DNA from: a virus
IMG/VR virus record: IMGVR_UViG_3300024348_000081
Span: 1 to 46,000 of that record
Reading direction: 5' to 3' (one strand)
Length of the DNA stretch: 46,000 nucleotides
Shown here in pieces: positions 9,921 through 43,737 of this stretch; the first letter of the stretch is position 1, and each line of letters opens with the position of its first letter. The notes below the pieces were generated by a model that was not told the origin of the DNA, made no database searches, and saw only the letters and a program-made list of their open reading frames with translations. The translations under genes were made by a program, and so were the position numbers.

Positions 9921-10407
9921 TTATTATAGAATTCCGACTGAATCGGAAATGCAAGAGCGTAAAGCTCGTTTAGAAAAGCGTATTCAAGAATTAGAGATGA
10001 CGGCTGGAAATATTGAACGCAAATTTAATACGATTCCAACTCATGATTCAGATTATGTTTGGGAATATGAAACTCCATGGGACGAGTTTTGTAATAATAC
10101 TAATATTCATTTAGGAAAACGCAGCAGCGGCTGGAAGTTTAGCTGGAATTTCCATAAGAATAAGTTTTACAATAACAAAGAAACCTTATTGGCCTTTATT
10201 AGAGCGGGCCGAATTATTGATGAATATGGTACAGAACTTCCAGCCGAAGAATTTATTGAAATGGCCATGGATTGGGGTCAACCCGATGGATTGATCGCAG
10301 ATGAAGCTTACCTAAGAAAGTACGAACGTAATATTGGTAATTGGCAAGACTATGTGGATCGGGACATTGACGGGCTTAGGGTTTCTTCTTCAACTGAATT
10401 CTGTTAA
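9910..10407 (+). CDS. Phage protein of the MGTNYY type (165 aa)
   Basis: It begins MGTNYYRIP and contains IHLGKRSSGWKFSWNFH (about residues 62-78), a pairing common in small phage proteins of unknown function. An N-terminal coiled coil (about 10-40) precedes it. Acidic residues at the C-terminal half may bind a ligand, but no reaction is known. It overlaps the HAD gene by 11 nt. Confidence 0.65.
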   Translation: MGTNYYRIPTESEMQERKARLEKRIQELEMTAGNIERKFNTIPTHDSDYVWEYETPWDEFCNNTNIHLGKRSSGWKFSWNFHKNKFYNNKETLLAFIRAGRIIDEYGTELPAEEFIEMAMDWGQPDGLIADEAYLRKYERNIGNWQDYVDRDIDGLRVSSSTEFC

Positions 10408-10437
10408 AATTAACTAGACCCTAGTCAATAATTAAAG

Positions 10438-10446
10438 TATAATACA
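10438..10446 (+). promoter_or_regulatory. Early-type promoter box GTATAATAC
   Basis: AAAGTATAATACAGT ends 2 nt before ATG 10449. If it is used as a -10 box, the transcript would begin at or inside the start codon. Confidence 0.4.
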
Positions 10447-10448
10447 GT

Positions 10449-10754
10449 ATGGAAAACCAAGAAGTTTTAATATGTGAATGTCACTCAACTGATCATCAGA
10501 TCCTATTTATGTGGGAACATGATCCATTTATCGATGATCAATTGGCTTTTATGCACATACACCTATCGAATTACCGAGGTTTTTGGCAAAGACTTCGGTA
10601 TGGCTTAGCCTATGCTTTTGGTAGAAAGAGCCGCTTTGGGGCTTTTGATGAAATTATCTTAGATCCAAAGGATGCTGATAAACTACAAAGGGTAGTTAAT
10701 CACCTCAAAAATATAAAGAAACAACGTGAAAAGAAAGTTAAGAGAACTGTTTGA
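10449..10754 (+). CDS. Unknown protein (101 aa)
   Basis: Soluble protein with a basic C-terminal tail (KKQREKKVKRTV) and an aromatic middle (FWQRLRYGLAYAFGRK). No recognised domain. It heads a short operon through the methylglyoxal synthase and overlaps the next gene by 29 nt. Confidence 0.6.
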   Translation: MENQEVLICECHSTDHQILFMWEHDPFIDDQLAFMHIHLSNYRGFWQRLRYGLAYAFGRKSRFGAFDEIILDPKDADKLQRVVNHLKNIKKQREKKVKRTV

Positions 10755-11639: not shown

Positions 11640-12344
11640 ATGATTAGTACCAAATTAACTATAGTTATTCCATGTAAAAACGAGGGCAATACAATTTATG
11701 CCTGCCTACTTGCTATCTCAAACCAAGTAGATTCCAACAACCTTTCCATTATTATTGCAGATAGTTCAGATAATCAAGAGTCTCTTGATATTTTAGCTAA
11801 GTGCAAATCTGATTTTAAAAATCTAGATATTCAAGTAGTGAATGGCGGATTTCCAGCTCAAGCCAGATTAAATGGTTCTTATCTAGTTAAAACCGATTAT
11901 CTACTCTTTTTAGATGCAGATATTATGCTAACTGATATTAATACACTAATACAGTCTATAATCCATTGCTGCTCTAACCCACATATTGATTTACTTACAA
12001 TACCTTTTTACACAGATCCTAAGTGGAACTGGGCTTTTAGAGCGTTTAAATTCTGTCAAATGATTGGACCACCATTTGCAATAGGCGGCTTTCAATTATG
12101 GAAAACCTCAGCCTATTGGAAAACTGGCGGTTATAATCCAGCTGAAATATTTGCAGAAGACTATTCAATTTCTTCTAAAGTAGATCGAGCTAATTTTAAA
12201 ATGCTAAAGTCTAGTCTTGCATATACTTCGCCAAGACGATTTGAAAATAAAGGTATCTTTTATATGTTTAAGTTAATGATCTTAAGTTATATTAACCGAA
12301 ATAAACCAGACTTTTTTAAAAAACACCATGATTATTGGACATGA
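11640..12344 (+). CDS. Family 2 glycosyltransferase (234 aa)
   Basis: The N-terminal nucleotide-sugar domain reads KLTIVIPCKNEGNTIYACL (4-22), followed by IIIADSSDN and the metal-binding LFLDADIM (about 88-95). The acceptor half contains PPFAIGGFQLWKTSAYWKTGGY and EDYSISSKV, the GT2 ED motif. The C-terminus has a hydrophobic YMFKLMILSYI helix that may bind the membrane. The sugar and acceptor are unknown. It overlaps the next gene by 4 nt (ATGA) and may modify LPS with it. Confidence 0.8.
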   Translation: MISTKLTIVIPCKNEGNTIYACLLAISNQVDSNNLSIIIADSSDNQESLDILAKCKSDFKNLDIQVVNGGFPAQARLNGSYLVKTDYLLFLDADIMLTDINTLIQSIIHCCSNPHIDLLTIPFYTDPKWNWAFRAFKFCQMIGPPFAIGGFQLWKTSAYWKTGGYNPAEIFAEDYSISSKVDRANFKMLKSSLAYTSPRRFENKGIFYMFKLMILSYINRNKPDFFKKHHDYWT

Positions 12345-19104: not shown

Positions 19105-20073
19105 ATGAAACAATATAAACTTTTCTCAATTGACGGTCGTCCACTTGCAAACGAAATTTGCGAACATCTTTCAACCCTAACTGACTCTGATATTAGAGTC
19201 GGTAAATTTAAAATTGATCAATTCTCAGATGGAGAATTTAGTCCACAGTTTTTAGAATCAATTAGAGACAAGTCTGTATTTTTAACAACTACTTTAACTA
19301 GTTCAGACGCTATTATTAAATTAGTACTTTCAATTGATGCAGCAAAGCGCGCATCTGCATCTGAGATTATTATAGTACTTCCATACCTTGCATATTCGCG
19401 ACAAGATCGAAGAGAAGGCCATCGCGGTTCAATTGGCGGAAAGGCAATTGCTGATCTTATTAAAAACGCAGGCGCCAATAAAGCAATCTTGTTTGATCTA
19501 CACTCAGAACAGATTCAGGGTTTCTTTGATATGCCGGTTGAACATATTCCAGGCTGGGTTGCATTTACTGAGTATGTAAAAGAATTGGATCCAACTTGTG
19601 ATTGGACTGTATGTTCTCCAGATGCAGGCGGTGTTAAACGAGCAATGCGGTTTTATCAACACTTTGTTAAAACACATGAGACTGCAACCTTTTCAATGTT
19701 ATCTAAACTAAGGGACAAGCCAAATTCAATTGAACGAATGGATCTGATTGGAGATGTTAATGGTCGATGTGTAATCTTAATTGATGATATGGTTGATACT
19801 GGCGGAACTCTTCTACTTGCCGCAAAACTGCTAAAAGAAGCAGGAGCCCTAAAGGTTCATGCAATCTGTACGCATGGAGTTTTATCTGGCCCTGCATATG
19901 ACCGACTAAGCGGAGAAAATGGTCAATATCTAGATTCGTTAGTTATTAGTACTTCAATTCCATCTAATTTTCACGATAAAATAAAAACCGTAAGCTGTGC
20001 TCAGCCCATTGCTAAAACTATTTTTGCAATGACTAGATCTGTATCTGTAGCACAAACTCTATTACCACTATGA
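19105..20073 (+). CDS. prs: Ribose-phosphate pyrophosphokinase (PRPP synthetase)
   Basis: Makes PRPP from ribose 5-phosphate and ATP for nucleotide and NAD synthesis. Diagnostic segments: FSDGEFSP (about 40-47), LPYLAYSRQDRR (about 92-103), FDLHSEQIQGFF (about 130-141), SPDAGGVKRA (about 171-180) and the PRPP loop LIDDMVDTGGTLL (about 225-237). Its 322-aa length is normal for the family (about 315). Some large phages carry prs with nampT for NAD salvage, but no nampT is in this window. It overlaps the next gene by 4 nt. Confidence 0.92.
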   Translation: MKQYKLFSIDGRPLANEICEHLSTLTDSDIRVGKFKIDQFSDGEFSPQFLESIRDKSVFLTTTLTSSDAIIKLVLSIDAAKRASASEIIIVLPYLAYSRQDRREGHRGSIGGKAIADLIKNAGANKAILFDLHSEQIQGFFDMPVEHIPGWVAFTEYVKELDPTCDWTVCSPDAGGVKRAMRFYQHFVKTHETATFSMLSKLRDKPNSIERMDLIGDVNGRCVILIDDMVDTGGTLLLAAKLLKEAGALKVHAICTHGVLSGPAYDRLSGENGQYLDSLVISTSIPSNFHDKIKTVSCAQPIAKTIFAMTRSVSVAQTLLPL

Positions 20074-20804
20074 AGAAATTAATTTTTATCCTATGCTTTT
20101 TGCCAAGCTTGGCAGGAGCACAAACCCAAACCTATTCCTTAAATGGAATGTTAAATATCGGTAACCGTGCAGGTTATCTGGTCGGAACAAAGGCAGAATA
20201 CAAATCAAAGGACACTGACCAAATCGGTTTAGTTAGCAATGCATCAGGTCAAATTCAATATGCATCAGTCAATGACGCAATGCTATTACAGAGAAGAGAT
20301 ATTAACCTTTCTGTGTATGGCTGGAAGACTCTGGATAAGGTACAGTCACTTATATTTTTTAGTGAAGGTGAACATTCATATACCAGAAAGGTTGAATTCA
20401 GGGTGACCGGAGGAGCTGGTTATAAAAAGGTTCTAGTTGATGCTCCAGGTAAAAAGATTGAAGTTTCGCAAGCCATTACAACAGAACAACTTCAATTAAT
20501 TGACGGCAATCGTAGCTGGACTATTCGCAGTTCAACTAGAGGTAAACTTGTGTTGGGTACAGACACTAAATTAACAATCATTGCCACCATACAGCCGCCC
20601 CTTGCCTCTAATACTGGAGCAGACGTTAAGAACAATATGGTAGGTCGAGTTATTGCTCAATTGGAGCACCCCTTATCAAAAAGTCTGTCATTTTCAGTTA
20701 GTAGCGATATAAACTATCAAACATATCAGTCTTGGGTTAAACCAGACGTTAAACCTTACGACGGAGTTATTCAGCTTGGCCTAATGTGGAAGCCGAATAA
20801 ATAA
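20070..20804 (+). CDS. Exported beta-strand-rich outer membrane-type protein (244 aa)
   Basis: The signal peptide KKLIFILCFLPSLAGAQ is followed by alternating strands of a likely small barrel (YSLNGMLNIGNRAGYLVG; GRVIAQLEHPLSKSLSFSVSSDINY) ending GVIQLGLMWKPNK. Resembles a transporter-like or DUF481-like barrel rather than an enzyme. It is coupled to prs by ATGA overlap, an odd partner. It could alter the host surface (inference). Confidence 0.6.
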   Translation: MKKLIFILCFLPSLAGAQTQTYSLNGMLNIGNRAGYLVGTKAEYKSKDTDQIGLVSNASGQIQYASVNDAMLLQRRDINLSVYGWKTLDKVQSLIFFSEGEHSYTRKVEFRVTGGAGYKKVLVDAPGKKIEVSQAITTEQLQLIDGNRSWTIRSSTRGKLVLGTDTKLTIIATIQPPLASNTGADVKNNMVGRVIAQLEHPLSKSLSFSVSSDINYQTYQSWVKPDVKPYDGVIQLGLMWKPNK

Positions 20805-21707: not shown

Positions 21708-21878
21708 ATGAAAAACTACGTAATCGTAATGCTTCTAGTTGCTGCAGTAGGAATTACTGCATGTGGAAATGGTTCAGCTGGTGCTGATGCTACAGCTGTT
21801 GACTCTACTCAAGTAGATTCAGCATGTTGCGCAACAGACTCAACTGCAGCTGTAGACACAGCCACTGCTACCAAGTAA
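21708..21878 (+). CDS. Small lipoprotein (56 aa)
   Basis: ATG 21708 to TAA 21876-21878. Signal peptide MKNYVIVMLLVAAVGITAC with a lipobox (I-T-A-C, Cys about 19) followed by GNGSAG. The mature part is a low-complexity Asp/Ser/Thr/Ala tail with repeated DST and a CC pair. Probable cell-envelope lipoprotein, possibly for superinfection exclusion or lysis timing (inference). Confidence 0.7.
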   Translation: MKNYVIVMLLVAAVGITACGNGSAGADATAVDSTQVDSACCATDSTAAVDTATATK

Positions 21879-21994: not shown

Positions 21995-23926
21995 ATGAAA
22001 CAGTGGCTAAAAACCCTCCTATTCGCCGTGCTATGTCTCTCGGCAAGCTCAATTTACGCTCAAACAGGTCCTCCAGCTCCATCTTCGGGTGCTTGGGTCT
22101 TGATTGACACCAACTACACAGTTGGATCATCTCTGCTTGGTCAAACCAAAGCACGAATTACTTACAAAAATAATACCTCAACCCTAGTAACAGGTCTTCA
22201 ATTTAGAGTATTCTATGATAAGACTGCATTTACTGGTGCTACTGTCGCTGCAGTAACTTCAGCGTCAAACGAAGTTCTGTCGTATGTAACTGATTCAGTT
22301 AATGGATTTATTACAATTACGCTTGTTTATACAGGTTCAAGCAGCACATGGACGCTAGCTGAAGGTGAAACTTTTGAAATTACATTTACCCATGCGACAA
22401 ATTCTACATTCCAAGCACTAACTGCAATTTCAAACTTAACTTGGTCTGCAACCAGTGGAAACTCTTTCCCTAAGTTATTGGCAAAGCAAGATGGTACAGA
22501 TGGTACACTAAGCCAACACAACTATGGTGGTATCTTTGTAAGACCATCTCTTAATTACCATGGTACATTTACCAACGTAACTGGTTCAGGTTCAAAGAAT
22601 ATTATTGTTCAACTACAGCAACGTCCAAAGACTGGTGGTACTTGGTCAACTATTAAAATGGATACGACTGCTGTATCTGGAGCATTTGCATTTAATAATG
22701 TAGTTGTCGATACTACTTACTTTAATGCACGATTATATGTTAAAGGTGATACGTTAACCGTAGGTAATACAATCTCTACAGCAGATGCTGCTAAAGTAAA
22801 CCAATATGTATTAGGACAAGCAACTCCAACTGGATTTGATTACTATGCAGCTGACGTAAACTCAGATAATACAATTTCAATTACAGATGCCTATGGTATC
22901 TATGGTAGATTAGCTGGAAGATTTACAGCATGGCCAAACAGTACGCCAGATGTTAAATTCTTTACTGCGGCTCAATACACAACCATCAATGGTTCATCTA
23001 CAAACTATACTTCATCAATTGCAGGTATAACTGATATTACATTTAATATTGTCGCAGGTCAACCTGATTCTGTAACATTCTATGTATTAGGTAAAGGTGA
23101 TGCAAATGGAACAGGATTCCATATGGCACGTGTAACCCCTATTCAAATTATTAATCCTAATAATGCGCCAAACCATATTATCGATGTAACAACTGAATAT
23201 GATAATGCTAATCAATTAGGAACAATTGAAGTAAACATGCCAACACTATCGGTTGAGGCTGGAAATTTAGTTAATGTTCCTGTTAAAATTTTAGCAACCA
23301 ATACTCAAATCAGTGCTCTGCAATTAGCAATGAAATACGATCCACTTCTATTAGAATTTAAATCTCTTTCTGCTGAAGCTGGAGTAGCTCATTGGTTATC
23401 ATTTGTAAATCCATCAGATGGAACAATCGAATGGGGAGCTTCTGACTTTACTACAACTAATCCACTAAGTGACGGGCAAACTGCAATTAATATTCAATTT
23501 AAAGCGTTAGTTCCTCAAAATCAATGGAATAAAAGCCCACTCTATGTAACTCGTAAATTTGCAGGTGTTGCTGGTACTCTTAGAGATTTAAATATTACAC
23601 CAACCGATGGAATTATTCAAGTATTAATTGTTAATCCTGGATTTGGCAATCAATTAATCGAAAACGAATTGATGCAAGTTAGATTAGCGCCAAACCCAAC
23701 TAGAGATCAGGTTGCAGTAACATTTAATATTATAGAAGATGCACTGGTGAATCTTACATTTAGAGATCACCTAGGTCAACCTATTAAAACTTTAGTTAAT
23801 CAGTTTATGCCAGCTGGAACCTATACCTACACTACAAATTTAGGTCATGTTCCCGATGGAATTTACTATGCAATTCTTTGGTCTGGTAAGAAGGTTGCAT
23901 CAGCAAAGGAAATAGTTTTAAAGTAA
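21995..23926 (+). CDS. Secreted cohesin/dockerin-type protein with T9SS sorting domain (643 aa)
   Basis: Signal peptide 1-23 (ending SIYAQ). Then a cohesin-like beta sandwich (about 30-165); a linker; a dockerin-like calcium-binding region (about 255-310) with ISTADAAKVNQYVLG and DVNSDNTISITDAYGIYG; a second cohesin-like domain (about 420-545); and a C-terminal type A T9SS sorting domain (about 562-643) starting LAPNPTRDQ and ending SAKEIVLK. Bacteroidetes export such proteins to the cell surface by the type IX system. The longer frame from 21917 lacks a sensible signal. In a phage this implies use of the host T9SS. Confidence 0.8.
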   Translation: MKQWLKTLLFAVLCLSASSIYAQTGPPAPSSGAWVLIDTNYTVGSSLLGQTKARITYKNNTSTLVTGLQFRVFYDKTAFTGATVAAVTSASNEVLSYVTDSVNGFITITLVYTGSSSTWTLAEGETFEITFTHATNSTFQALTAISNLTWSATSGNSFPKLLAKQDGTDGTLSQHNYGGIFVRPSLNYHGTFTNVTGSGSKNIIVQLQQRPKTGGTWSTIKMDTTAVSGAFAFNNVVVDTTYFNARLYVKGDTLTVGNTISTADAAKVNQYVLGQATPTGFDYYAADVNSDNTISITDAYGIYGRLAGRFTAWPNSTPDVKFFTAAQYTTINGSSTNYTSSIAGITDITFNIVAGQPDSVTFYVLGKGDANGTGFHMARVTPIQIINPNNAPNHIIDVTTEYDNANQLGTIEVNMPTLSVEAGNLVNVPVKILATNTQISALQLAMKYDPLLLEFKSLSAEAGVAHWLSFVNPSDGTIEWGASDFTTTNPLSDGQTAINIQFKALVPQNQWNKSPLYVTRKFAGVAGTLRDLNITPTDGIIQVLIVNPGFGNQLIENELMQVRLAPNPTRDQVAVTFNIIEDALVNLTFRDHLGQPIKTLVNQFMPAGTYTYTTNLGHVPDGIYYAILWSGKKVASAKEIVLK

Positions 23927-23952: not shown

Positions 23953-24276
23953 ATGTCTGAAGAAACAGAAAACGACGGCACTTGGTCAGGTCTTAAGAAG
24001 ACCCTAATCGGAACAATTTCAACTGTTGTGCTAGCAGGTGGAACATACTTAACTACTACTCTTTTTGGTGGTGATGACAAAGAAGAAACTAAAACTGAAC
24101 AGGCTGCCCCGGCTCCTGTTATAGTTAATGTTCAACAAAATCAAGAGAATACTCAAAAACAGCAAAACAATGGTGGTACCACAACTATCATCAAAGAAAG
24201 AGTTATAGAGAAAGCTCCTGCAGCAGAGCCAGCCGCTCCTAAAAAAGAGGCTAAGAAAGAAGAAGATTCTTGGTAA
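23953..24276 (+). CDS. Membrane-anchored linker protein (107 aa)
   Basis: One hydrophobic helix (about 14-40, TLIGTISTVVLAGGTYLTTTLFGG) follows a short acidic N-terminus. The rest is a polar, likely disordered linker with a Gln/Asn stretch (VQQNQENTQKQQNN), a possible coiled coil (TIIKERVIEK) and a Lys/Glu/Ala tail. It may act with the holin-like protein that follows, as a spanin-like or holin-partner protein; this is only positional inference. Confidence 0.55.
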   Translation: MSEETENDGTWSGLKKTLIGTISTVVLAGGTYLTTTLFGGDDKEETKTEQAAPAPVIVNVQQNQENTQKQQNNGGTTTIIKERVIEKAPAAEPAAPKKEAKKEEDSW

Positions 24277-24299: not shown

Positions 24300-24590
24300 A
24301 TGGCTAAATTAGAAAAAACAAAACCGAATTTCTTTAAACGTATGTTTATGGATGATAACGATATCAATGAAAAATCAATCGTAGGCTTTGGTGCTTTCTT
24401 AGTAATGGTTATTGCATTTGGAGTTGACATTTACACAGGTGTTAAAGGTATGCCTTTCGAAATTAATGAATTTATTTTTGATGGTTTTATGGTTATTACC
24501 TTAGGTGCATTTGGTATAGCATCAGTTGACAAATATCTAACTGGAAAGAATAAACCAGGTTCTTCTGACGAAGAAACTCCGGTAGAATAA
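24300..24590 (+). CDS. Holin-like protein with two transmembrane helices (96 aa)
   Basis: Two hydrophobic helices separated by a short loop: about 27-45 (VGFGAFLVMVIAFGVDIYT) and about 60-77 (FDGFMVITLGAFGIASV), with a basic N-terminus and an acidic, disordered C-terminus. This size and topology fit small phage holins. It starts at ATG 24300, 23 nt after the previous stop. No endolysin is adjacent; the nearest muralytic genes are at 36875 and 39927. Confidence 0.55.
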   Translation: MAKLEKTKPNFFKRMFMDDNDINEKSIVGFGAFLVMVIAFGVDIYTGVKGMPFEINEFIFDGFMVITLGAFGIASVDKYLTGKNKPGSSDEETPVE

Positions 24591-24605: not shown

Positions 24606-24710
24606 ATGGAGAAGGTATATTCTTTCTTTAAAGAAAACTGGAAAATAATCTTACTGGCAACCGTTTGGTTTGGTGGGTTGGGATTTATTGCCTATAAACT
24701 TGGAATATGA
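24606..24710 (+). CDS. Tiny membrane protein (34 aa)
   Basis: ATG 24606 to TGA 24708-24710, overlapping the CsgG-like start by 4 nt. One helix (WKIILLATVWFGGLGFIAY) after a short charged N-terminus. Possibly a lysis or secretion accessory; function unknown. Confidence 0.5.
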   Translation: MEKVYSFFKENWKIILLATVWFGGLGFIAYKLGI

Positions 24711-25420
24711 AAAAGTTAATCGTAATTTGCACCATGCTGTTATTGACAGTGTGCGCTCAAGCTCAAACAATTGGTTCAACTAAAACTGAAACCTACCAGG
24801 CTGATTTTGAAAAGAAGCAGTCAATAAACCTTGTTGCAAATTACGATGATACTATTGTAATTCCAATTCAAGTATTAAAAATTGGTATTAACGAAGAGTT
24901 ATATGAGATGTACCCTGAATTAAAGGATAATCGAGTAGGTCTTGGTGTTGCCAATATTGTTCTTGAATTTTTAGAATCGACTGACCGATTTAAATTCACA
25001 GAGGACAGGGAAGAGATTAAACAAAAAATGATTGCTCAACAAAAAGCATCAGATAAAGGAGTCTCAGCGAATACTATTCAAGTAAAAGGCAATGTTATTC
25101 TTGCTAAATACTTTGTTTATATCGAAGTTTATGATTTTGCAATATCAGAAGATGAAGAAATTCAAGTTTCTAGTGCAGAAGTTAAACAAAAAACTACAAT
25201 CGGCCTTCAAGTAAGATTTGTAGACGCTGAAACAGGCGAAATTATTACTGGCTCAGGGCTTGGTGAAGCAATTACTGTTAAGAAAGCAAGTCTATTGGAT
25301 GGCGTTGACGAGGTTAAGTTTAACCAATCAACAATCGGTATATCGACTAAGAAATCCCTTGAGACTGCTGCTTCACGTGTAGTGAGTAAGTTGATCAAAA
25401 AGGGAGTCTTTAGACGATGA
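24707..25420 (+). CDS. CsgG-like exported protein (237 aa)
   Basis: Signal peptide 1-20 (ending CAQAQ). The mature region has the CsgG/HfaB plan: LGVANIVLEFLESTDRFKFTEDREE, then strands of a periplasmic domain, and IGLQVRFVDAETGEIITGSG (about 164-183) with AASRVVSKLIKKG at the end, as in CsgG-family lipoproteins that form outer-membrane export channels. No lipobox Cys is seen, unlike classic CsgG. It lies in a four-gene run with a Gly/Ser-rich barrel protein and a small exported protein, which suggests a surface assembly cassette. Confidence 0.7.
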   Translation: MKKLIVICTMLLLTVCAQAQTIGSTKTETYQADFEKKQSINLVANYDDTIVIPIQVLKIGINEELYEMYPELKDNRVGLGVANIVLEFLESTDRFKFTEDREEIKQKMIAQQKASDKGVSANTIQVKGNVILAKYFVYIEVYDFAISEDEEIQVSSAEVKQKTTIGLQVRFVDAETGEIITGSGLGEAITVKKASLLDGVDEVKFNQSTIGISTKKSLETAASRVVSKLIKKGVFRR

Positions 25421-27063
25421 GATCTCTGTTCTTAATACTATTGTTATCTGCTTTTACCTCTTTGGTAAAAGCTCAAAGCTACATTTATCAATATGTAGAT
25501 CCATGTACAAAGAATATTAAATTTGTATCTGTTCCACTTAGTGGTGCAAATGTCGCCGTAACATATTATGGCCAAGTTGGAACATTTAGTAATGCAGATT
25601 TTAGCAATGGTAATTTTATATCATGGTTAAATCAAACTTCTGGCTCAAATGCTGGTAAACCATGCGATCAGGCTACAACTCAAGCAGTTAACTCAACTAA
25701 CTTAATCGTTACAAATAACATCATTTCAACCTTAACTAATATTACATCAGTTTCAATGATGGCAGCAAGTCTTTCATCAAATGTTGCAGGGACAGTCGGC
25801 GGTAATCTTGGAAATACTGTAAGCAATGGATCTTCCGGCGATGGTTCAGGAAACGGTAGCGGCGATGGAAAAAAAGACGATAAGAAAAATAGTAGCGGAA
25901 ATGGAAACAGCGGCAGTGGTAATAACAATAATTCTAATGGTTCCTCTGGTTCTAGTGGGAATACTCAGTCTAGTGGTTCAACTGGATCAACAAATAATCA
26001 AGGAAATGGCTCATCTAATAATAACGGAGGAAATACAACAGGTTCTAGCGGAAATACTGGAAGCGGAAACACTGGATCAGGTTCAGGTTCTGGTCAAGCA
26101 GGTGGAAACCCTGCTTCAGGCTCGGGAGGAAGCGGTTCAGGTTCAAGTGGTTCAACTCAAGGAGGAGGTTCATCGTCTCAGCCGCCTGTAGGTAATACGG
26201 GATCAACTGGGTCAACCGGAACTGGCGGTAATGGTAACACTAATGGCGGCGGAACGGGATCAGCTGGGGGTACAGGAAACACCACAGAAACAGGCGGAGC
26301 AACCCAGTCTAGTTCAAGTAGCGGAAGCGGCGGAACTGCAAATTCTGTATCAAATGCAGCTGAAGCAACATCAAGTGGAGGCGGTAGTTCTAGCGGCGGC
26401 GGAAGTTCAAAAAATGGAGATAAAAACCGAGCAAGAACTGGTGCTCTTATTGGAACTGGCGATATTGTAGCTGTACGTAGCGCAGAAGAGGGAGAAAAGG
26501 ATCAATTTAAGTTTACGATGAGTATGACTAAATCTAATACTAAAAACACCTTTGCTAGAGGATTCTTAGGAAACTTTACTACTCAAATTAATAATTCAAA
26601 CGTTACGTTCTATGGTGCATGGACCTTGCCTAAGAGTAAAACAACTATTATTGTTGCAAACTCATCAATGATAAATCCAGATAGAGACTTTTTTAATACT
26701 ACAACTTTACTTTCGTCAAAGAGATTTACAAAACTGTCACTTATGGGCGGTCTTAACTTTACAGCTGGTGCAATTGGAGAAACTGGTTTTCAAAACTTAT
26801 CAGCAGTCGGCGGTGGATTTTATATGTTTAATGCAGGTAAAAAAATAACAGCAACTCTCCTGGTACTTGGAGTCTATTCTCCATTTACACAATTCTATGA
26901 AGGAAATTGGTGGAGTTCAGGTCTATTGGTAGTTCCATTTAGTTCATGGGATTATTCAATTACAAAGAAATTTAAATTTAATATAAGTTTCTCGGGAACT
27001 TATGAAATGAATAAAAATATGCTTAACTATCAGATCTTAACCGGTGGTAAAGTTATGCTTTAA
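25417..27063 (+). CDS. Exported Gly/Ser/Asn-rich protein with C-terminal barrel-like domain (548 aa)
   Basis: Signal peptide 1-20. Residues about 20-130 are a globular N-terminal part with a Cys pair. About 135-345 is an extreme low-complexity region of Gly, Ser, Asn and Thr, interrupted by one GDGKKDDKK patch. About 350-548 is a beta-barrel-like domain (alternating strands such as FKFNISFSGTYEMNKN). It overlaps the CsgG-like gene by 4 nt. The layout suits a surface-displayed or channel-associated fibre anchored in the outer membrane; this is inference. Confidence 0.65.
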   Translation: MRSLFLILLLSAFTSLVKAQSYIYQYVDPCTKNIKFVSVPLSGANVAVTYYGQVGTFSNADFSNGNFISWLNQTSGSNAGKPCDQATTQAVNSTNLIVTNNIISTLTNITSVSMMAASLSSNVAGTVGGNLGNTVSNGSSGDGSGNGSGDGKKDDKKNSSGNGNSGSGNNNNSNGSSGSSGNTQSSGSTGSTNNQGNGSSNNNGGNTTGSSGNTGSGNTGSGSGSGQAGGNPASGSGGSGSGSSGSTQGGGSSSQPPVGNTGSTGSTGTGGNGNTNGGGTGSAGGTGNTTETGGATQSSSSSGSGGTANSVSNAAEATSSGGGSSSGGGSSKNGDKNRARTGALIGTGDIVAVRSAEEGEKDQFKFTMSMTKSNTKNTFARGFLGNFTTQINNSNVTFYGAWTLPKSKTTIIVANSSMINPDRDFFNTTTLLSSKRFTKLSLMGGLNFTAGAIGETGFQNLSAVGGGFYMFNAGKKITATLLVLGVYSPFTQFYEGNWWSSGLLVVPFSSWDYSITKKFKFNISFSGTYEMNKNMLNYQILTGGKVML

Positions 27064-27076
27064 AAAATCAAATACT

Positions 27077-27523
27077 ATGAAAAAGTTATTATTAGTTTTA
27101 TCAACCCTTACTCTACTTTCTTTTACTGAACCTTGTTATAAAGTAACAAGCGTTATCGCAAGTGCAGATGCGCCTGATATGAAAAAAGAAAGAGTAATCT
27201 TTGGAATTAAACAATTAGCAGAAGAAATTGTTTCAGAAAAATATACAATTTGCAGCGACGGTTCGCCAATTACAGTTGATCTTTTTTCAATAGAGGCTCC
27301 AACTACTGGCGTTTCAATCGGACCTTTTACTGCAATTAAGAAAGAAACTATTATTAAAGTTAAAATTACCAAAGATGGTAAAGAATATATTGGAGAAGGC
27401 ACAGCTAAAACCACGGTTAAATCTACCTTAATTGAATTAAAAGACGAGAATCTTCCATTTGAAAAAACAACTTTCGCTAGTGCAGTAAAGAAAAGTTTAT
27501 TAGACGCAGTTAGCAAAATGTAA
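27077..27523 (+). CDS. Small exported protein of the CsgG-like cassette (148 aa)
   Basis: ATG 27077 gives a signal peptide (KKLLLVLSTLTLLSFTEPC); the Cys at residue 21 could be a lipidation site but the lipobox is poor. The mature part is a compact beta-rich domain (ITVDLFSIEAPTTGVSIGPF; IIKVKITKDGKEYIGEGTA) ending SAVKKSLLDAVSKM. It is reminiscent of CsgG-operon accessory domains, but no clear family is recognised. Starts 13 nt after the barrel gene. Confidence 0.55.
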   Translation: MKKLLLVLSTLTLLSFTEPCYKVTSVIASADAPDMKKERVIFGIKQLAEEIVSEKYTICSDGSPITVDLFSIEAPTTGVSIGPFTAIKKETIIKVKITKDGKEYIGEGTAKTTVKSTLIELKDENLPFEKTTFASAVKKSLLDAVSKM

Positions 27524-27525
27524 TT

Positions 27526-29838
27526 ATGTTTAAAAAACAACTCTACATATTATTAGGACTTGTCCTATTCTTAATTCCAGCACTAGGTTTTGCGCAAGCA
27601 ACAACAGTTAATCTTGGAACAAGTAGTAGTGGGGTTGTATCAGTTAGCTTTAATACATGGACCAAAGTTGATCCAAACATATCAATAACAGCAAACGGAA
27701 CAATTAGCGGGTTCAGGGTTCAAATATCTCAAGCCTATACAAGTGGTGCAAGCGGAGATCAATTAAGATCTACAGCAACTCTGCCATCGGGAATATCGGT
27801 TGCGGCATTTAATACAACAACTGGAGTCTTAGCATTTAGCGGTTCTACTACTGCCTCTAATTGGCAAACTGTGTTAAGCGGAGTTGAGTTTAGATCAACT
27901 ACTTCAACCTGCTATGCCCTACAAAGAAGAATTACTTTTGTAGCAGGTACAGTATTTTATAATCCATTAACTGAACACTTCTATGAATATGTTTCAGGTA
28001 GTACATCTTGGACTAATTCCTATACGGCAGCCTCTGCTAAATCATATTTTGGCCGAGCTGGATATTTAGCAACAATGATGTCAGAAGCAGAAAATAATTT
28101 TGTTTGGAAGTTAATGGCAAACGATGCTTGGATGGGAGCGTCTGATGATTATAACTATATTAATACAGCAAAGGGTTCAACTGTTTATGCTAGTCAATCG
28201 GCAGCTGAAGGTAAGTGGCACTGGGTAACTGGTCCAGAAAAAGGTCAAAACTTTTCAAACGGAAATACCCCAAGCACAACCTTAGTATCGGGTATGTATC
28301 ATAAATGGGCAGGCGGCGAGCCTAATGGTACATCAGAAGCTTTTGGTCAATTCTATTCTTCAAATAATGGCCAATGGAATGACTTAGCCAATAGCACTCT
28401 ACCTGGTTATATTTGTGAATATGGAGATATGCCTGGAGATATTACATCAAGTACTACAATATTAACCCGAAGTATTGAGATTAGCGGAGCATCGAGCGGT
28501 TATATTTCAGGTGGAGATATTAATGTTTGTTCAGGTTCAAATAGTACAACCCTAACTCTTAATAGTTATACTGGAAGTATTGTAAGATGGGAATCTTCTT
28601 TTGATAACTTCTTTACTGCAGGTACTACAATTTCAAGTACGTCCGCTAGCATCACAGTTACTAACTTAACTAAGACTACATATTATAGAGCAATTGTAAA
28701 TTCAACTAGCCCAACTACTTGTTCAGGTTTAGCAACATCGAGTAGCGCTCTATCAGTTAAGCCAACAACCGCTGGCTCGGTATTCGCAGCAAACAATTCA
28801 ATTTGTGCAGGCGGTCAAGCTGAACTAACCTTATCTGGTCAACAGGGTAATATTAATAAATGGCAAAGGTCAACTGATAATGTTAACTGGACTGATATTA
28901 CAAATACGACTGCAAGTTTAACTCAAACTCTTAATACAGCAGGTACCTATTATTATAGAGCACAGGTGCAAACACCAAACTGTGGAAGTGCAGTTAATAC
29001 TAGTGCTAAGACCATTACCGTTACATCGGGAACTCCGCCAGTCGGAGGATCAGTTTCATCTGCAGTTCATGCAACCGCAACCAATTCAGGTACGCTAACG
29101 CTTAGTGGACATACCGGAACTATTGTTAAATGGCAACGTTCGGCAAATGATGGAGTAACGTGGACAGATATTACAAATACCTCTACGACCAATTCATATT
29201 CAAATCAAACCGATGGTGTTTTGTATAGAGCTCAATTACAAAATGGAACATGTGGATTTACATTTTCAACTGCAGGAATAATTACAGTTGCACCATTTAC
29301 ATATTCCGGAACTGTTTACAATTCAGAGGTAATCGTTTTTCCAAACGTTGAAGTTAAACTATATTCTAAACTTAAATCTGATCTAACCTATTCTTTTAAT
29401 AGTTCGTCTACTACTAATGCAAGCGGAGTATACTCATTCACAACTTCTCTAAGTGTAAACAAATATGATTTTAGAGTGTCAATTGAATCTATTACAACTA
29501 CAATTCCAACATCGACTGATGCTCAAACATTTACCAATAAGATTTTAACACAAACATTTAACTCAAAGGATTACTATAGAATTGACGCAAATAATAATAA
29601 CTCATTATCAATTACAGATGTGTTCTTAATTTATTCTAAAGTTAACTCTACTATTTTAACTTGGCCAAATTCAACACCAGACTATAGAATATTCTCGGCA
29701 ACCCAATGGTCTACTATTAATAGTGGAACAGCTAACATGAAATCTACTTTACCTGGACAACAATCGCTGCTAATAGATGGGCCAGTTTCAGGTGGAACAA
29801 CTAACTTTTATATAGTTAGAACTGGAATTCGCCAGTAA
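27526..29838 (+). CDS. Secreted C-type-lectin and Ig-repeat protein with dockerin-like end (770 aa)
   Basis: Signal peptide 1-24. A beta-domain (about 25-135) precedes a C-type lectin domain (about 140-300): ITFVAGTVFYNPL, AKSYFGRAGYLATMMSEAENNF, WMGASDD, WAGGEPNG and WNDL, the calcium/sugar-binding signature. Then come Ig-like or fibronectin-like repeats with a shared KWQRS..N..WTDITNT motif (about 440 and 540), and a dockerin-like part (NNNNSLSITDVFLIYSKVN) followed by TWPNSTPDYRIFSATQWSTI, closely matching the protein at 21995. No T9SS sorting tail. A carbohydrate-binding surface protein. Confidence 0.75.
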   Translation: MFKKQLYILLGLVLFLIPALGFAQATTVNLGTSSSGVVSVSFNTWTKVDPNISITANGTISGFRVQISQAYTSGASGDQLRSTATLPSGISVAAFNTTTGVLAFSGSTTASNWQTVLSGVEFRSTTSTCYALQRRITFVAGTVFYNPLTEHFYEYVSGSTSWTNSYTAASAKSYFGRAGYLATMMSEAENNFVWKLMANDAWMGASDDYNYINTAKGSTVYASQSAAEGKWHWVTGPEKGQNFSNGNTPSTTLVSGMYHKWAGGEPNGTSEAFGQFYSSNNGQWNDLANSTLPGYICEYGDMPGDITSSTTILTRSIEISGASSGYISGGDINVCSGSNSTTLTLNSYTGSIVRWESSFDNFFTAGTTISSTSASITVTNLTKTTYYRAIVNSTSPTTCSGLATSSSALSVKPTTAGSVFAANNSICAGGQAELTLSGQQGNINKWQRSTDNVNWTDITNTTASLTQTLNTAGTYYYRAQVQTPNCGSAVNTSAKTITVTSGTPPVGGSVSSAVHATATNSGTLTLSGHTGTIVKWQRSANDGVTWTDITNTSTTNSYSNQTDGVLYRAQLQNGTCGFTFSTAGIITVAPFTYSGTVYNSEVIVFPNVEVKLYSKLKSDLTYSFNSSSTTNASGVYSFTTSLSVNKYDFRVSIESITTTIPTSTDAQTFTNKILTQTFNSKDYYRIDANNNNSLSITDVFLIYSKVNSTILTWPNSTPDYRIFSATQWSTINSGTANMKSTLPGQQSLLIDGPVSGGTTNFYIVRTGIRQ

Positions 29839-36874: not shown

Positions 36875-37816
36875 TTATGCAATAGTTGATGCATAGTCTA
36901 GTGCTCTTGCATAACCTCTTGCACTATGGCCGGCACGAATATCTGTACCCCATCCAGCATTGGCTTGAACATAGTCAGTAACAGCAGATTCTAAATTATT
37001 GTAGGAGTTTAGGTCTTTACCCTTTCCTTTAAAACTATTAATAAAGTACAACATTGCAAATTCAGCTGCAATATTTGGATCTTCTAGTAATTCAGGTTCC
37101 TCAACAATATTAATTTCAGTACCAGCTTTAAGCTTACCCATTTTATCAAATAGGTCTTGCAGTTTTTTATAGTTAGCCTTAAATGTTATTTGGTTAAATC
37201 CACGACCTCTATATCTAGCCCCATCGCCAGGTTGAGTATTGCCGTATTTTACACCACGACCAGTTGGATCGTCTACTCCATATACTCTATCCCAAAATTT
37301 AGTAGGCTCTTCTTTTAGTGCAGTAAGTTGACTATCGGAAAGATCTGCTACTCTTGCACCATATACTTCTCTGATTCTTGAATTTGAAGTATTACTATAG
37401 TCCCCTTCTGGAGTTAAGTTTGAACTTTCTTTTGAAATTACACCAAGAATTGCTTTTCTTGCAAAGTCATTTGTAATTCCATGTCTTTCCATTGCAGCCT
37501 CAAGCGCTAAGACGTTTTCTGCTGGAATTTTCTTGTCAAACTTTTTAAATTTAGTAGACGACTTAGCAGAATCTGATTTAGATTTTTCTTTATCATCAGC
37601 TTTAGTATCAGTCTTTATACCTAGGGCAGAAGCAGTCTTATCTATAACTGCAGCTGCGGTTGATCCAGGTTCTGCAATTGAAGTTACTGAACTTGGTGCA
37701 GGCTCAACTGCCTTTCCGGTAAATGCCGATGTTGCAAGATCGCCAATCCATCCTAAAAATGAAGTGTCTTCATTTAATCTTTGCCATGACTTAAAGTCTC
37801 TAATGTTTTGTCCCAT
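36875..37816 (-). CDS. GH19-type lysozyme/chitinase with capsid-targeting-like N-terminus (313 aa)
   Basis: The C-terminal domain (about 105-313) is a GH19-like muralytic fold: AILGVISKESSN with the likely catalytic Glu (about 120), DGARYRGRGFNQITFKANY (about 203-221) and NIAAEFAMLYF. Residues 1-20 (NIRDFKSWQRLNED) match the head-targeting tag, and about 30-100 is a low-complexity Ala/Ser/Lys linker. It degrades peptidoglycan or chitin-like glycans. No signal peptide. The only minus-strand gene after 1.3 kb, with its own late-type box. Could be packaged in the head and injected, or serve as endolysin. Confidence 0.8.
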   Translation of the reverse strand: MGQNIRDFKSWQRLNEDTSFLGWIGDLATSAFTGKAVEPAPSSVTSIAEPGSTAAAVIDKTASALGIKTDTKADDKEKSKSDSAKSSTKFKKFDKKIPAENVLALEAAMERHGITNDFARKAILGVISKESSNLTPEGDYSNTSNSRIREVYGARVADLSDSQLTALKEEPTKFWDRVYGVDDPTGRGVKYGNTQPGDGARYRGRGFNQITFKANYKKLQDLFDKMGKLKAGTEINIVEEPELLEDPNIAAEFAMLYFINSFKGKGKDLNSYNNLESAVTDYVQANAGWGTDIRAGHSARGYARALDYASTIA

Positions 37817-39645: not shown

Positions 39646-39916
39646 AAGAATTGGAACAGTTGCAGTTTTAGCCAGTGCACTAATCGCAGGATTTTGTATT
39701 GGTTATTATTACGAATTAGCCTTAAACAAAGTTAAAGGTGAAGCTTGGAGAGAAGCTAGATCTCTTAAAAGTACGTCGATTGCAGTAAATGAAAAGGAAG
39801 AGCTATTGATTATCGATAGAAAGACTGGAGTTTATACAATTTACTCAGACTCAATCGGACGTGTTATTTTTAACATATATGCACAAAAAGCATATGTAAA
39901 TGCTACTGGCCACTAA
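39587..39916 (+). CDS. Membrane-anchored protein (109 aa)
   Basis: The start overlaps the previous gene by 59 nt. One transmembrane helix (about 21-44, IGTVAVLASALIAGFCIGYYY) with a helical basic N-terminus; a beta-rich C-terminal part (VYTIYSDSIGRVIFNIYAQKAYV) probably faces the periplasm. It directly precedes the transglycosylase, so it may help lysis. Function unknown. Confidence 0.55.
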   Translation: MENQKNFAQHLTEKATALLKRIGTVAVLASALIAGFCIGYYYELALNKVKGEAWREARSLKSTSIAVNEKEELLIIDRKTGVYTIYSDSIGRVIFNIYAQKAYVNATGH

Positions 39917-39926
39917 AATTAAAATT

Positions 39927-40427
39927 ATGGGAGTAAATTCATTTAAAACTCTCATTGTATTGGCTGGAATATTAGCATTTGGTTTTCTTTGGAGACTATT
40001 TAATACTGAACCAACTAAAGAGCTAAGCAGCGGAACAATCAATGAGAAGTCACCGCCAAGTTTAGCTCTTTATTATTATCTAGAGAAATATTCAGATGAA
40101 TATAATGTTCCATTCCATATTGCAATGGGAGTGGCAAGGGAAGAAACAGGTTACCATGGTCCATTTGATTGGAAATACAATCCAAAGCTAACTTCATCTG
40201 CTGCAGCGTATGGTGCAATGCAGATACAGGTACCAACTGCAAATTTTATTTGGGATGAGCCGATAACCAAGAAACAATTACTAAATAACCTTGAACTAAA
40301 TGTTCAAATTTCAATGAAACTTTTGGCATATCTGTATAAAAGATATGATAGTTGGCCATTGGCGGTTGGCTGTTATAATACAGGTAGACCAATGGTTAAC
40401 GATTACGCTAGACGTATAGTTAAATAA
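39927..40427 (+). CDS. Membrane-anchored lytic transglycosylase (166 aa)
   Basis: An N-terminal anchor helix (about 5-24, FKTLIVLAGILAFGFLW) followed by an SLT domain: FHIAMGVAREETGY with the catalytic Glu (about 73), AAAYGAMQIQVPTA (about 92-105) and WPLAVGCYNTGRP (about 146-158). It cleaves peptidoglycan glycan strands. The ATG at 39927 is chosen; an upstream ATG at 39900 overlaps the previous gene and would delay the anchor. Likely lysis or entry enzyme. Confidence 0.8.
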   Translation: MGVNSFKTLIVLAGILAFGFLWRLFNTEPTKELSSGTINEKSPPSLALYYYLEKYSDEYNVPFHIAMGVAREETGYHGPFDWKYNPKLTSSAAAYGAMQIQVPTANFIWDEPITKKQLLNNLELNVQISMKLLAYLYKRYDSWPLAVGCYNTGRPMVNDYARRIVK

Positions 40428-42599: not shown

Positions 42600-43716
42600 T
42601 AATTCAGTGTGCTTTGTTGCAACAGTTAAGGAAATTAAACCAATTGAAGGTGCTGATAAAATTGAATTAGCTGTAGTTGGTGGATGGAACTGCATTGTGC
42701 AAAAAGGTCAATATAAAGTTGATGATTGGGTAGTTACTGCAACAACCGATGCAGTAATTCCAATTAAGCTTTCTGATGAACTTAATGTTACAAACTATCT
42801 TAGAAAAGGTGGTAGGGTCCGTACTGTAAAATTACGTGGTGTTTATTCTGAATGTCTAGTGATTCCGTTAAAGCATATTCCATTCATGGAAAACTACTAT
42901 GAAGGTAAGGACATGATGTATGCAATGGATATTTGGAAATACGAACCTCCAGTTAAACAGGTTCAATTGGCTAGCGGTAAAAAGATTAGGTATTCCGAAA
43001 ATCCAAACTTTCATATCTACTATAAATTTCCAAATGCAAAAAATGTACCAGGAATGTTTACCGAAGAAGATTGGGTTGAGATTTCTCGTAAGATCCATGG
43101 TACTAATGCAAGATACGGTATTGTAAAGAAAAACAAACTTTCCTTATTTGATAAAGTAAAGAAATTATTTGGTGTTAAATGGGTCGATTATGAATTTGTA
43201 GCAGGTTCACACAATGTTGAAAAGGGTTCTGACTCTCAGGGTTTCTATGATACTAATGTGTGGTATGATGTTGCCGATAAATATAACATTAAGGAAGTTT
43301 TATGGAAGTTTGCCAAGGACACCGAAAGATTCCCAGACGGTATTGGTATAGGCGTAGTTTTATACGGCGAAATTTATGGAGCAGGTATTCAAAAGAACTA
43401 TGATTATGGACTAAAGGAAATTGAATTTGCAGGGTTTGACTTGGAAATCAATGGCAAATACTGTTCAACTGATGAATCTTTTAATTTTGTTGGAATTGAA
43501 ATGGATTTACCTTATGTTGATGTGTTATATGTTGGAGAGTGGAATAAAGAAATTGAAGATATGTATGTCTTTAAGAATTTTATCCCTGGAACTAAAGTGC
43601 CACACGAAGGAGTTGTTGTAAAACACCACACCGGTGATCGTCATAAAGTTGCAAAGGTAATTAATCCAGACTACTTAATATATGCAGAAAACTGGGAAGT
43701 TGGTGACAGCCATTAA
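42589..43716 (+). CDS. RNA ligase (Rnl2/Rnl5-like) with N-terminal OB domain (375 aa)
   Basis: ATP-dependent nucleotidyltransferase ligase. N-terminal OB-like domain (about 5-110) beginning FVATVKEIKPIEGADKIELA, as in Deinococcus Rnl and related enzymes. Motif I RKIHGTN with the adenylated Lys at about 168 matches T4 Rnl2; motif III-like LYGEIYGAG (about 263-271); motif IV EGVVVK (about 341-346); and motif V-like HKVAKV (about 354-359). It seals RNA nicks, plausibly restoring cleaved tRNAs with the adjoining kinase. Directly overlaps the kinase gene. Confidence 0.85.
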   Translation: MENNNSVCFVATVKEIKPIEGADKIELAVVGGWNCIVQKGQYKVDDWVVTATTDAVIPIKLSDELNVTNYLRKGGRVRTVKLRGVYSECLVIPLKHIPFMENYYEGKDMMYAMDIWKYEPPVKQVQLASGKKIRYSENPNFHIYYKFPNAKNVPGMFTEEDWVEISRKIHGTNARYGIVKKNKLSLFDKVKKLFGVKWVDYEFVAGSHNVEKGSDSQGFYDTNVWYDVADKYNIKEVLWKFAKDTERFPDGIGIGVVLYGEIYGAGIQKNYDYGLKEIEFAGFDLEINGKYCSTDESFNFVGIEMDLPYVDVLYVGEWNKEIEDMYVFKNFIPGTKVPHEGVVVKHHTGDRHKVAKVINPDYLIYAENWEVGDSH

Positions 43717-43728
43717 CAAAATAATTGG

Positions 43729-43737
43729 GTATAATAT
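43729..43737 (+). promoter_or_regulatory. Early-type promoter box GTATAATAT
   Basis: ATTGGGTATAATATTATT ends 4 nt before ATG 43742, another near-leaderless arrangement. Confidence 0.45.

Follow-up and report, generated by a model that had tools for sequence, protein, structure and literature searches.

A widespread phage-specific gene module in viruses of Flavobacterium-type bacteria, with a predicted CsgG/PelC-type fold protein and a possible role in surface display

Why should a virus carry a row of genes for exported proteins, one of which resembles the curli secretion protein CsgG, and is such a row a curli-type assembly line? We addressed this question for a 46 kb virus record (IMG/VR IMGVR_UViG_3300024348_000081, positions 1 to 46,000, the whole of which is called the window here), a fragment of a large tailed-phage genome as judged by neighbouring genes that include those for T4-type DNA topoisomerase II and PRPP synthetase. 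A first-pass annotation had described a cassette of four adjacent genes, here named A, B, C and D, of which the first two overlap. These reading frames are real, and A and B share 4 bp (ATGA), but the cassette is larger than that: three genes directly upstream on the same strand (T9coh, tm1 and tm2b) had been missed, as had the homology between C and A. The seven genes are as follows:

T9coh, 21995-23926, + strand: signal peptide, dockerin-like motif, cohesin domain and C-terminal T9SS type A sorting domain.
tm1, 23953-24276, + strand: single N-terminal transmembrane (TM) segment, Pro/Ala/Lys/Glu-rich tail and invariant C-terminal Trp; a possible inner-membrane tether.
tm2b, 24300-24590, + strand: two-TM holin-like protein.
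A, 24707-25420, + strand: exported protein of 237 aa with a predicted CsgG/PelC-type fold.
B, 25417-27063, + strand: 548 aa, with signal peptide, N-terminal domain, linker and predicted C-terminal 12-strand barrel.
C, 27077-27523, + strand: small exported protein of 148 aa, by profile comparison a shorter homologue of A.
D, 27526-29838, + strand: exported protein of 770 aa, with C-type lectin (EPN..WND signature), Ig-like repeats and a tail with a dockerin-like motif.

C likely starts at MKKLLLV, and the listed GTG start at 27044 sits upstream of this. All four of the proteins A to D had been said to bear signal peptides, and each indeed has one of Flavobacterium type, as called by inspection and a simple heuristic rather than by SignalP. 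A search of PHROGs gave no family for A, B, C or D.

Protein A is the most conserved member of the cassette (77% mean column identity among 24 proteins). It scores 18.6 bits against the Pfam CsgG profile, below the cut-off of 20.8; six of 24 homologues match that profile at E ≤ 0.1, the best at 8.5e-5, and a sequence search against the sequences of solved structures gave no match. Its structure model (pLDDT 65), with the element order b-a-b-a-b-b-b-a and long strands at 135-173 that may enter the membrane, finds CsgG as the best match among solved structures in Foldseek (4uv2, E 2.9e-8; 6l7c, E 3.4e-8), followed by PelC (5t0z, E 4e-6), GNA1162, HpaA and LptE. As modelled, A is a protein of CsgG/PelC-type fold, and the earlier description of the first protein as CsgG-like agrees with this structure prediction (E 3e-8).

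The further view that the cassette resembles a curli-type assembly line was not supported. CsgE, CsgF and CsgA/B curlin repeats were each found in 0 of 12 phage records, the E. coli control being positive for all three. The signal peptide of A is a plain one ending in AQ, with neither the Cys found in CsgG nor a lipobox; the hairpin motif GGxGARYFG, invariant in 10 Flavobacteriaceae CsgG proteins, is missing in A; and the A profile does not match the CsgG profile of the same bacterial family (hhalign probability 5%). Bacterial CsgG itself, present as full-score hits in 10 of 60 Flavobacteriaceae, is a protein different from A. Membership in the curli (type VIII) systems was rejected on the CsgE, CsgF, curlin and CsgG profile tests, all of which were negative, and likeness to curli secretion is confined to the fold of a single component.

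Pelagiphages and methylophage Melnitz are known to carry curli operons that encode CsgG, CsgF and curlin-like proteins, and sibling capture, protection against superinfection, uptake and lysis control have been proposed as their functions (PMC7029224, PMC9599517, PMC9004378). The present module shares with these type VIII (T8SS) operons a phage-carried CsgG-fold protein with partner genes; the curli products lie at the outer membrane and are proposed to alter the cell surface or lysis. The curli operons have true CsgG and CsgF, CsgA/B-like repeats and FecR, whereas the module here, with no CsgE, CsgF or curlin, combines a distant CsgG-fold protein (A) and its homologue C with the barrel protein B, a possible membrane tether and T9SS, cohesin and lectin proteins.

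The third protein, C, is a small exported protein, as had been noted, but its kinship with the first had been overlooked. The profiles of C and A match (hhalign probability 95.8%, E 7e-9) and the C HMM matches 108 A ORFs, so at the level of sequence C is a small homologue of A; since the C profile also matches A, ORFs were assigned to the best-scoring family. The C profile gave no pairwise profile match to bacterial CsgG. Protein B begins with a small domain that has an invariant Cys pair and a long helix in the alignment, continues in a disordered Gly/Ser/Asn-rich linker of ~220 residues, and ends in a predicted 12-strand barrel of outer-membrane type (AF2; mean pLDDT 55 overall, mostly 70-80 in the barrel), so that the prediction bears out the earlier view of a Gly/Ser/Asn-rich protein with a barrel-like C-terminus. 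The barrel matches NanC, NalP and FapF in Foldseek (E 4e-6 to 1e-5). FapF, which secretes functional amyloid, likewise has a 12-strand barrel preceded by a helix and a linker, but no sequence relation to it is shown, no Fap partners were seen, and NanC and autotransporter barrels match equally, so the likeness may be generic.

A CsgG-type fold in A next to a barrel in B recalls the PelBC exopolysaccharide exporter, in which twelve PelC subunits make up a ring on the PelB barrel (PMC12141448). A CsgG-like fold, predicted in the case of A, stands beside a separate outer-membrane barrel protein, likewise predicted in the case of B, and among the kinds of fold that A matches PelC comes second only to CsgG. 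PelC forms a periplasmic ring without a membrane barrel of its own, and a ring in the present module is predicted by analogy. The two systems differ in that PelC is a lipoprotein that works on polysaccharide, whereas A and C are not lipoproteins and their cargo is probably protein, and in the 12 predicted strands and extended disordered linker of B.

Among the candidates for display, sequence evidence is strongest for T9coh, which the first-pass annotation left out. Its window copy scores 43-47 bits for Cohesin (cut-off 24), and is sub-threshold for Dockerin_1 and for Por_Secre_tail (22.5 bits against 27); 22 of 23 homologues match Por_Secre_tail (PF18962) and TIGR04183, the best at 1e-11 to 1e-12, and 20 of 23 have a Cohesin domain. 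T9coh combines the signal peptide and C-terminal type A sorting domain that mark T9SS cargo, the latter by way of its homologues, as the window copy is sub-threshold. At 33 loci the cohesin protein was seen without a T9SS tail, and the gene next to it, on the tm1 side, encodes a lipoprotein of ~120 aa (loci of the L084 and L114-L164 type; e.g., L084 6213-6584). The profile of this lipoprotein weakly resembles the T9SS tail (hhalign 69%, E 4e-5), and it is a possible alternative anchor, perhaps a split anchor or a switch from T9SS to lipoprotein export. The last residue of tm1 is Trp in 158 of 158 homologues, the rest of the tail being variable, and its topology was deduced from the KK ahead of the TM segment.

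Protein D had been called C-type lectin/Ig/dockerin-like, and this description stands: the window copy has weak Lectin_C and Ig_7 matches and a dockerin-like motif, and homologues have a firm Lectin_C match (1e-17). D-type proteins have interchangeable heads (Lectin_C in 13, LamG in 5, Ig_7 in 3, GEVED in 3 and PA14 in 1; n = 21) on a conserved tail with the dockerin-like motif. The lectin heads have the EPN..WND signature of C-type lectins, which denotes calcium-dependent, mannose-type sugar binding; it occurs in 41 of 200 unique members of the T9coh and D families, and QPD..WND in none of them. None of 21 D members matches PF18962, the T9SS sorting tail, and D, lacking such a tail, may depend on export by way of A/B/C or on a partner with a cohesin domain. 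A cohesin-bearing anchored protein beside proteins with binding heads and dockerin-like tails is reminiscent of cellulosome-type scaffolds; however, the D-type heads are without enzymes, and the cohesin-dockerin pairing is putative, as the dockerin matches in the T9coh and D families are sub-threshold. D-type proteins are also not universal, about 30 loci having only one T9coh-family gene; A, B and C therefore cannot exist only to export D, and T9coh and tm1 are their safer partners.

How widely is this set of genes spread, and do its members belong together? Relatives of A are encoded by at least 284 stretches in IMG/VR, and the A protein of Flavobacterium phage immuto, an isolate that carries the cassette and infects Flavobacterium sp. 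LMO8, is 72.8% identical. The homologue search thus confirms that the cassette is carried by viruses, and it is very widely conserved. The gene order in immuto is lectin, T9coh-family gene, cohesin protein with T9SS tail, tm1, A, B, C. Among the 102 full loci (IMG/VR loci flanked by at least 7 kb on either side, from two scans), which were chosen by similarity to A, T9coh, tm1, B and C lie on A's strand in every one. This five-gene core is present in 35 of 35 clusters of A (95% identity), where pairs of A go down to 51% identity. The 102 loci show 31 gene arrangements, and because the order varies to this extent the linkage is not frozen ancestry alone; nor is the A/B/C set a product of chance, given at least 284 relatives of A and the presence of all three genes together on one strand at all 102 loci. 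When records were instead selected by capsid protein, A, C and tm1 were all together in two of seven and all absent in the other five. A divergent record from outside this sample, selected by its MCP, has an A that is ~50% identical over the part read, and it keeps C, an exported protein in the cohesin position, tm1, A and B. The cassette is not universal, A being found in 2 of 10 records whose capsid protein resembles that of immuto (several of them fragments).

Bacteria gave a different picture. In 249 Flavobacteriaceae genomes A occurs on phage-like contigs only, it was absent from 395 genomes of the class (first look plus scoring) apart from one phage-like contig, two GTDB contigs with A both have phage genes, and plasmids yielded none. 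A cellular origin of A was rejected, as its matches in the bacterial genomes searched are to phage-like contigs only. The module is real, widespread and phage-specific, in many large viruses of Flavobacterium-type bacteria.

Several other genes near the cassette deserve mention. Exported proteins of ~150 aa with a zinc-protease-like HESxH motif, which belong to no Pfam family, lie near it at 34 of the 102 loci (e.g., L019 5144-5599, - strand; L076 11718-12170), and DNA/RNA non-specific endonuclease homologues at 17 of the 102 (e.g., L019 10589-11176; immuto 9935-10513), the L019 copy having a signal peptide and being probably secreted. A further exported protein upstream, perhaps a small outer-membrane barrel, adjoins the PRPP synthetase gene both in the window (20070-20804) and in L083 (2205-2948, - strand). 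The window also encodes a putative lipoprotein of 56 aa with TAVDST-like repeats (21708-21878), and a similar one is found in immuto (19887-20114).

What might the module do? Export and surface display had been proposed, and signal peptides together with T9SS tails do point to display. The reading that we prefer, at about even chances, is a phage-specific outer-membrane complex with T9SS- or lipoprotein-anchored display of cohesin and lectin proteins, probably late in infection. By analogy with PelBC, A and its homologue C would probably form one or more CsgG/PelC-type rings, periplasmic and at the outer membrane, that work with the 12-strand barrel of B much as the PelC ring does on PelB, and tm1 may tie the complex to the inner membrane by its tail and terminal Trp. 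The host type IX system would send T9coh to the cell surface; in the other branch the lipoprotein paired with the cohesin protein may stand in for that protein's sorting tail. D-type proteins, with their interchangeable sugar-binding heads, may attach to T9coh by their dockerin-like tails. The outcome would be an infected cell that shows phage-encoded lectins, probably late in infection, and candidate effects are the masking of receptors, which would prevent superinfection and the loss of progeny on debris, or cell-cell sticking; the coating of cells, blocking of other phages and aggregation suggested earlier are likewise candidates. The constancy of the five-gene core at 102 of 102 loci, the joint presence or absence of A, C and tm1, and variable heads on a constant tail support a module of this kind; confidence in the structure models is low to moderate (pLDDT 65 for A and 55 for B). 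Phage genes with T9SS C-terminal sorting domains are known from Cryophage as single cargo genes, among them one for a PA14 protein, that vary between phages (PMC7468147), whereas in the present, fixed module the cargo gene is a constant companion of A, B, C and tm1. A bolder version, which we offer only tentatively, is that A and C rings, B and tm1 with its terminal Trp as a signal make up a phage-only outer-membrane secretion or assembly machine that puts exchangeable lectins on the infected cell, either alongside the host type IX system or, in certain lineages, in its place.

The main rival is release of progeny: A, B, C and tm1 would breach the outer membrane or weaken it at the time of lysis, as a spanin-like device or a pore, and the cohesin and lectin proteins would be accessory. 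An endolysin gene is found within the locus at 75 of the 102 loci; in contigs of at least 100 kb (33 contigs, 28 distinct A) the locus includes a same-family endolysin in 19 of 28 lineages, against 3.5 expected at random placement, and L269 has a non-homologous amidase in the same position. Two-TM holin-like genes sit inside the cassette, tm2b being directly 5' of the endolysin gene in several relatives (e.g., L081, tm2b at 12092-12340 and endolysin at 12340), and in immuto a two-TM holin-like gene (43413-43721) is followed by an endolysin gene at 43732. A lysis role has also been proposed for the CsgG of phage Melnitz (PMC9004378). As lysis genes often lie with the module, it is probably used late. 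However, the immuto cassette (10.5-16.4 kb) sits beside nrdAB (ribonucleotide reductase) and replication genes, ~30 kb from the genes for holin and endolysin and from an overlapping pair of spanin-like genes; a T9SS-tagged cohesin and variable lectin heads are superfluous for lysis; and A, B and C, with signal peptides but neither lipobox nor coiled coil, have the features of neither the lipoprotein nor the coiled-coil subunit of known spanins. Because the cassette of immuto lies apart from its lysis genes, we keep release as the main rival rather than the best reading, and consider it unlikely. Other lysis-type genes are the overlapping spanin-like pair of immuto (45825-46488; L184 17826-18489), beside a four-TM holin and endolysin, and two in the window, a likely endolysin (36875-37816, - strand) that matches the profile of the cassette-linked endolysins (E 1e-10) and a lytic-transglycosylase-like protein with an N-terminal TM segment (39900-40427, + strand).

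Less probable still is a function limited to superinfection exclusion or receptor masking, in which the exported proteins bind surface glycans of the host itself or block outer-membrane receptors and A/B/C acts as a blocking complex, not as an assembly line. The combination of a constant tail with variable sugar-binding heads would suit such a role, and the extreme conservation of A suggests contact with a conserved part of the host envelope, but likeness to known exclusion proteins is limited to a match to Cor in the signal peptide only, and the T9SS tail and tm1 are left unexplained. An uptake complex for nutrients or macromolecules, in which a porin-like B and periplasmic rings feed phage replication, is very unlikely: the 12-strand barrel of B is close to the NanC porin, uptake through a pore has been proposed for pelagiphage CsgG, and the immuto cassette lies beside nucleotide metabolism genes, but the cassette has no transporter genes and its lectins, cohesin, T9SS tail and tm1 would have no explanation. 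Phage virions often contain C-type lectin and Ig domains, yet virion components such as fibres or capsid decoration are highly improbable in view of the signal peptides of T9coh and of A to D and the long distance between cassette and structural module in immuto. A true curli system acquired from bacteria is scarcely credible, the CsgG fold of A and the precedent of phage-borne curli being outweighed by the failure to find its other components in 12 phage records and by the mismatch of A in lipobox, motif and profile.

Curli systems and T9SS cargo have each been described from phages before, and the set of genes reported here is apparently undescribed; a search of the open-access literature (subscription papers lay outside it) found no description of the module. 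If the preferred display reading is true, the module would be a third, independent case besides these two, and the immuto isolate on Flavobacterium sp. LMO8 opens the question to settlement in the laboratory. Control by a lytic phage of what sticks to infected cells, be it other phages, progeny on debris or sister cells, would become testable, and a widespread group of aquatic Bacteroidota phages would be seen to rebuild the outer surface of its hosts by means of interchangeable lectins and a phage-encoded outer-membrane machine.
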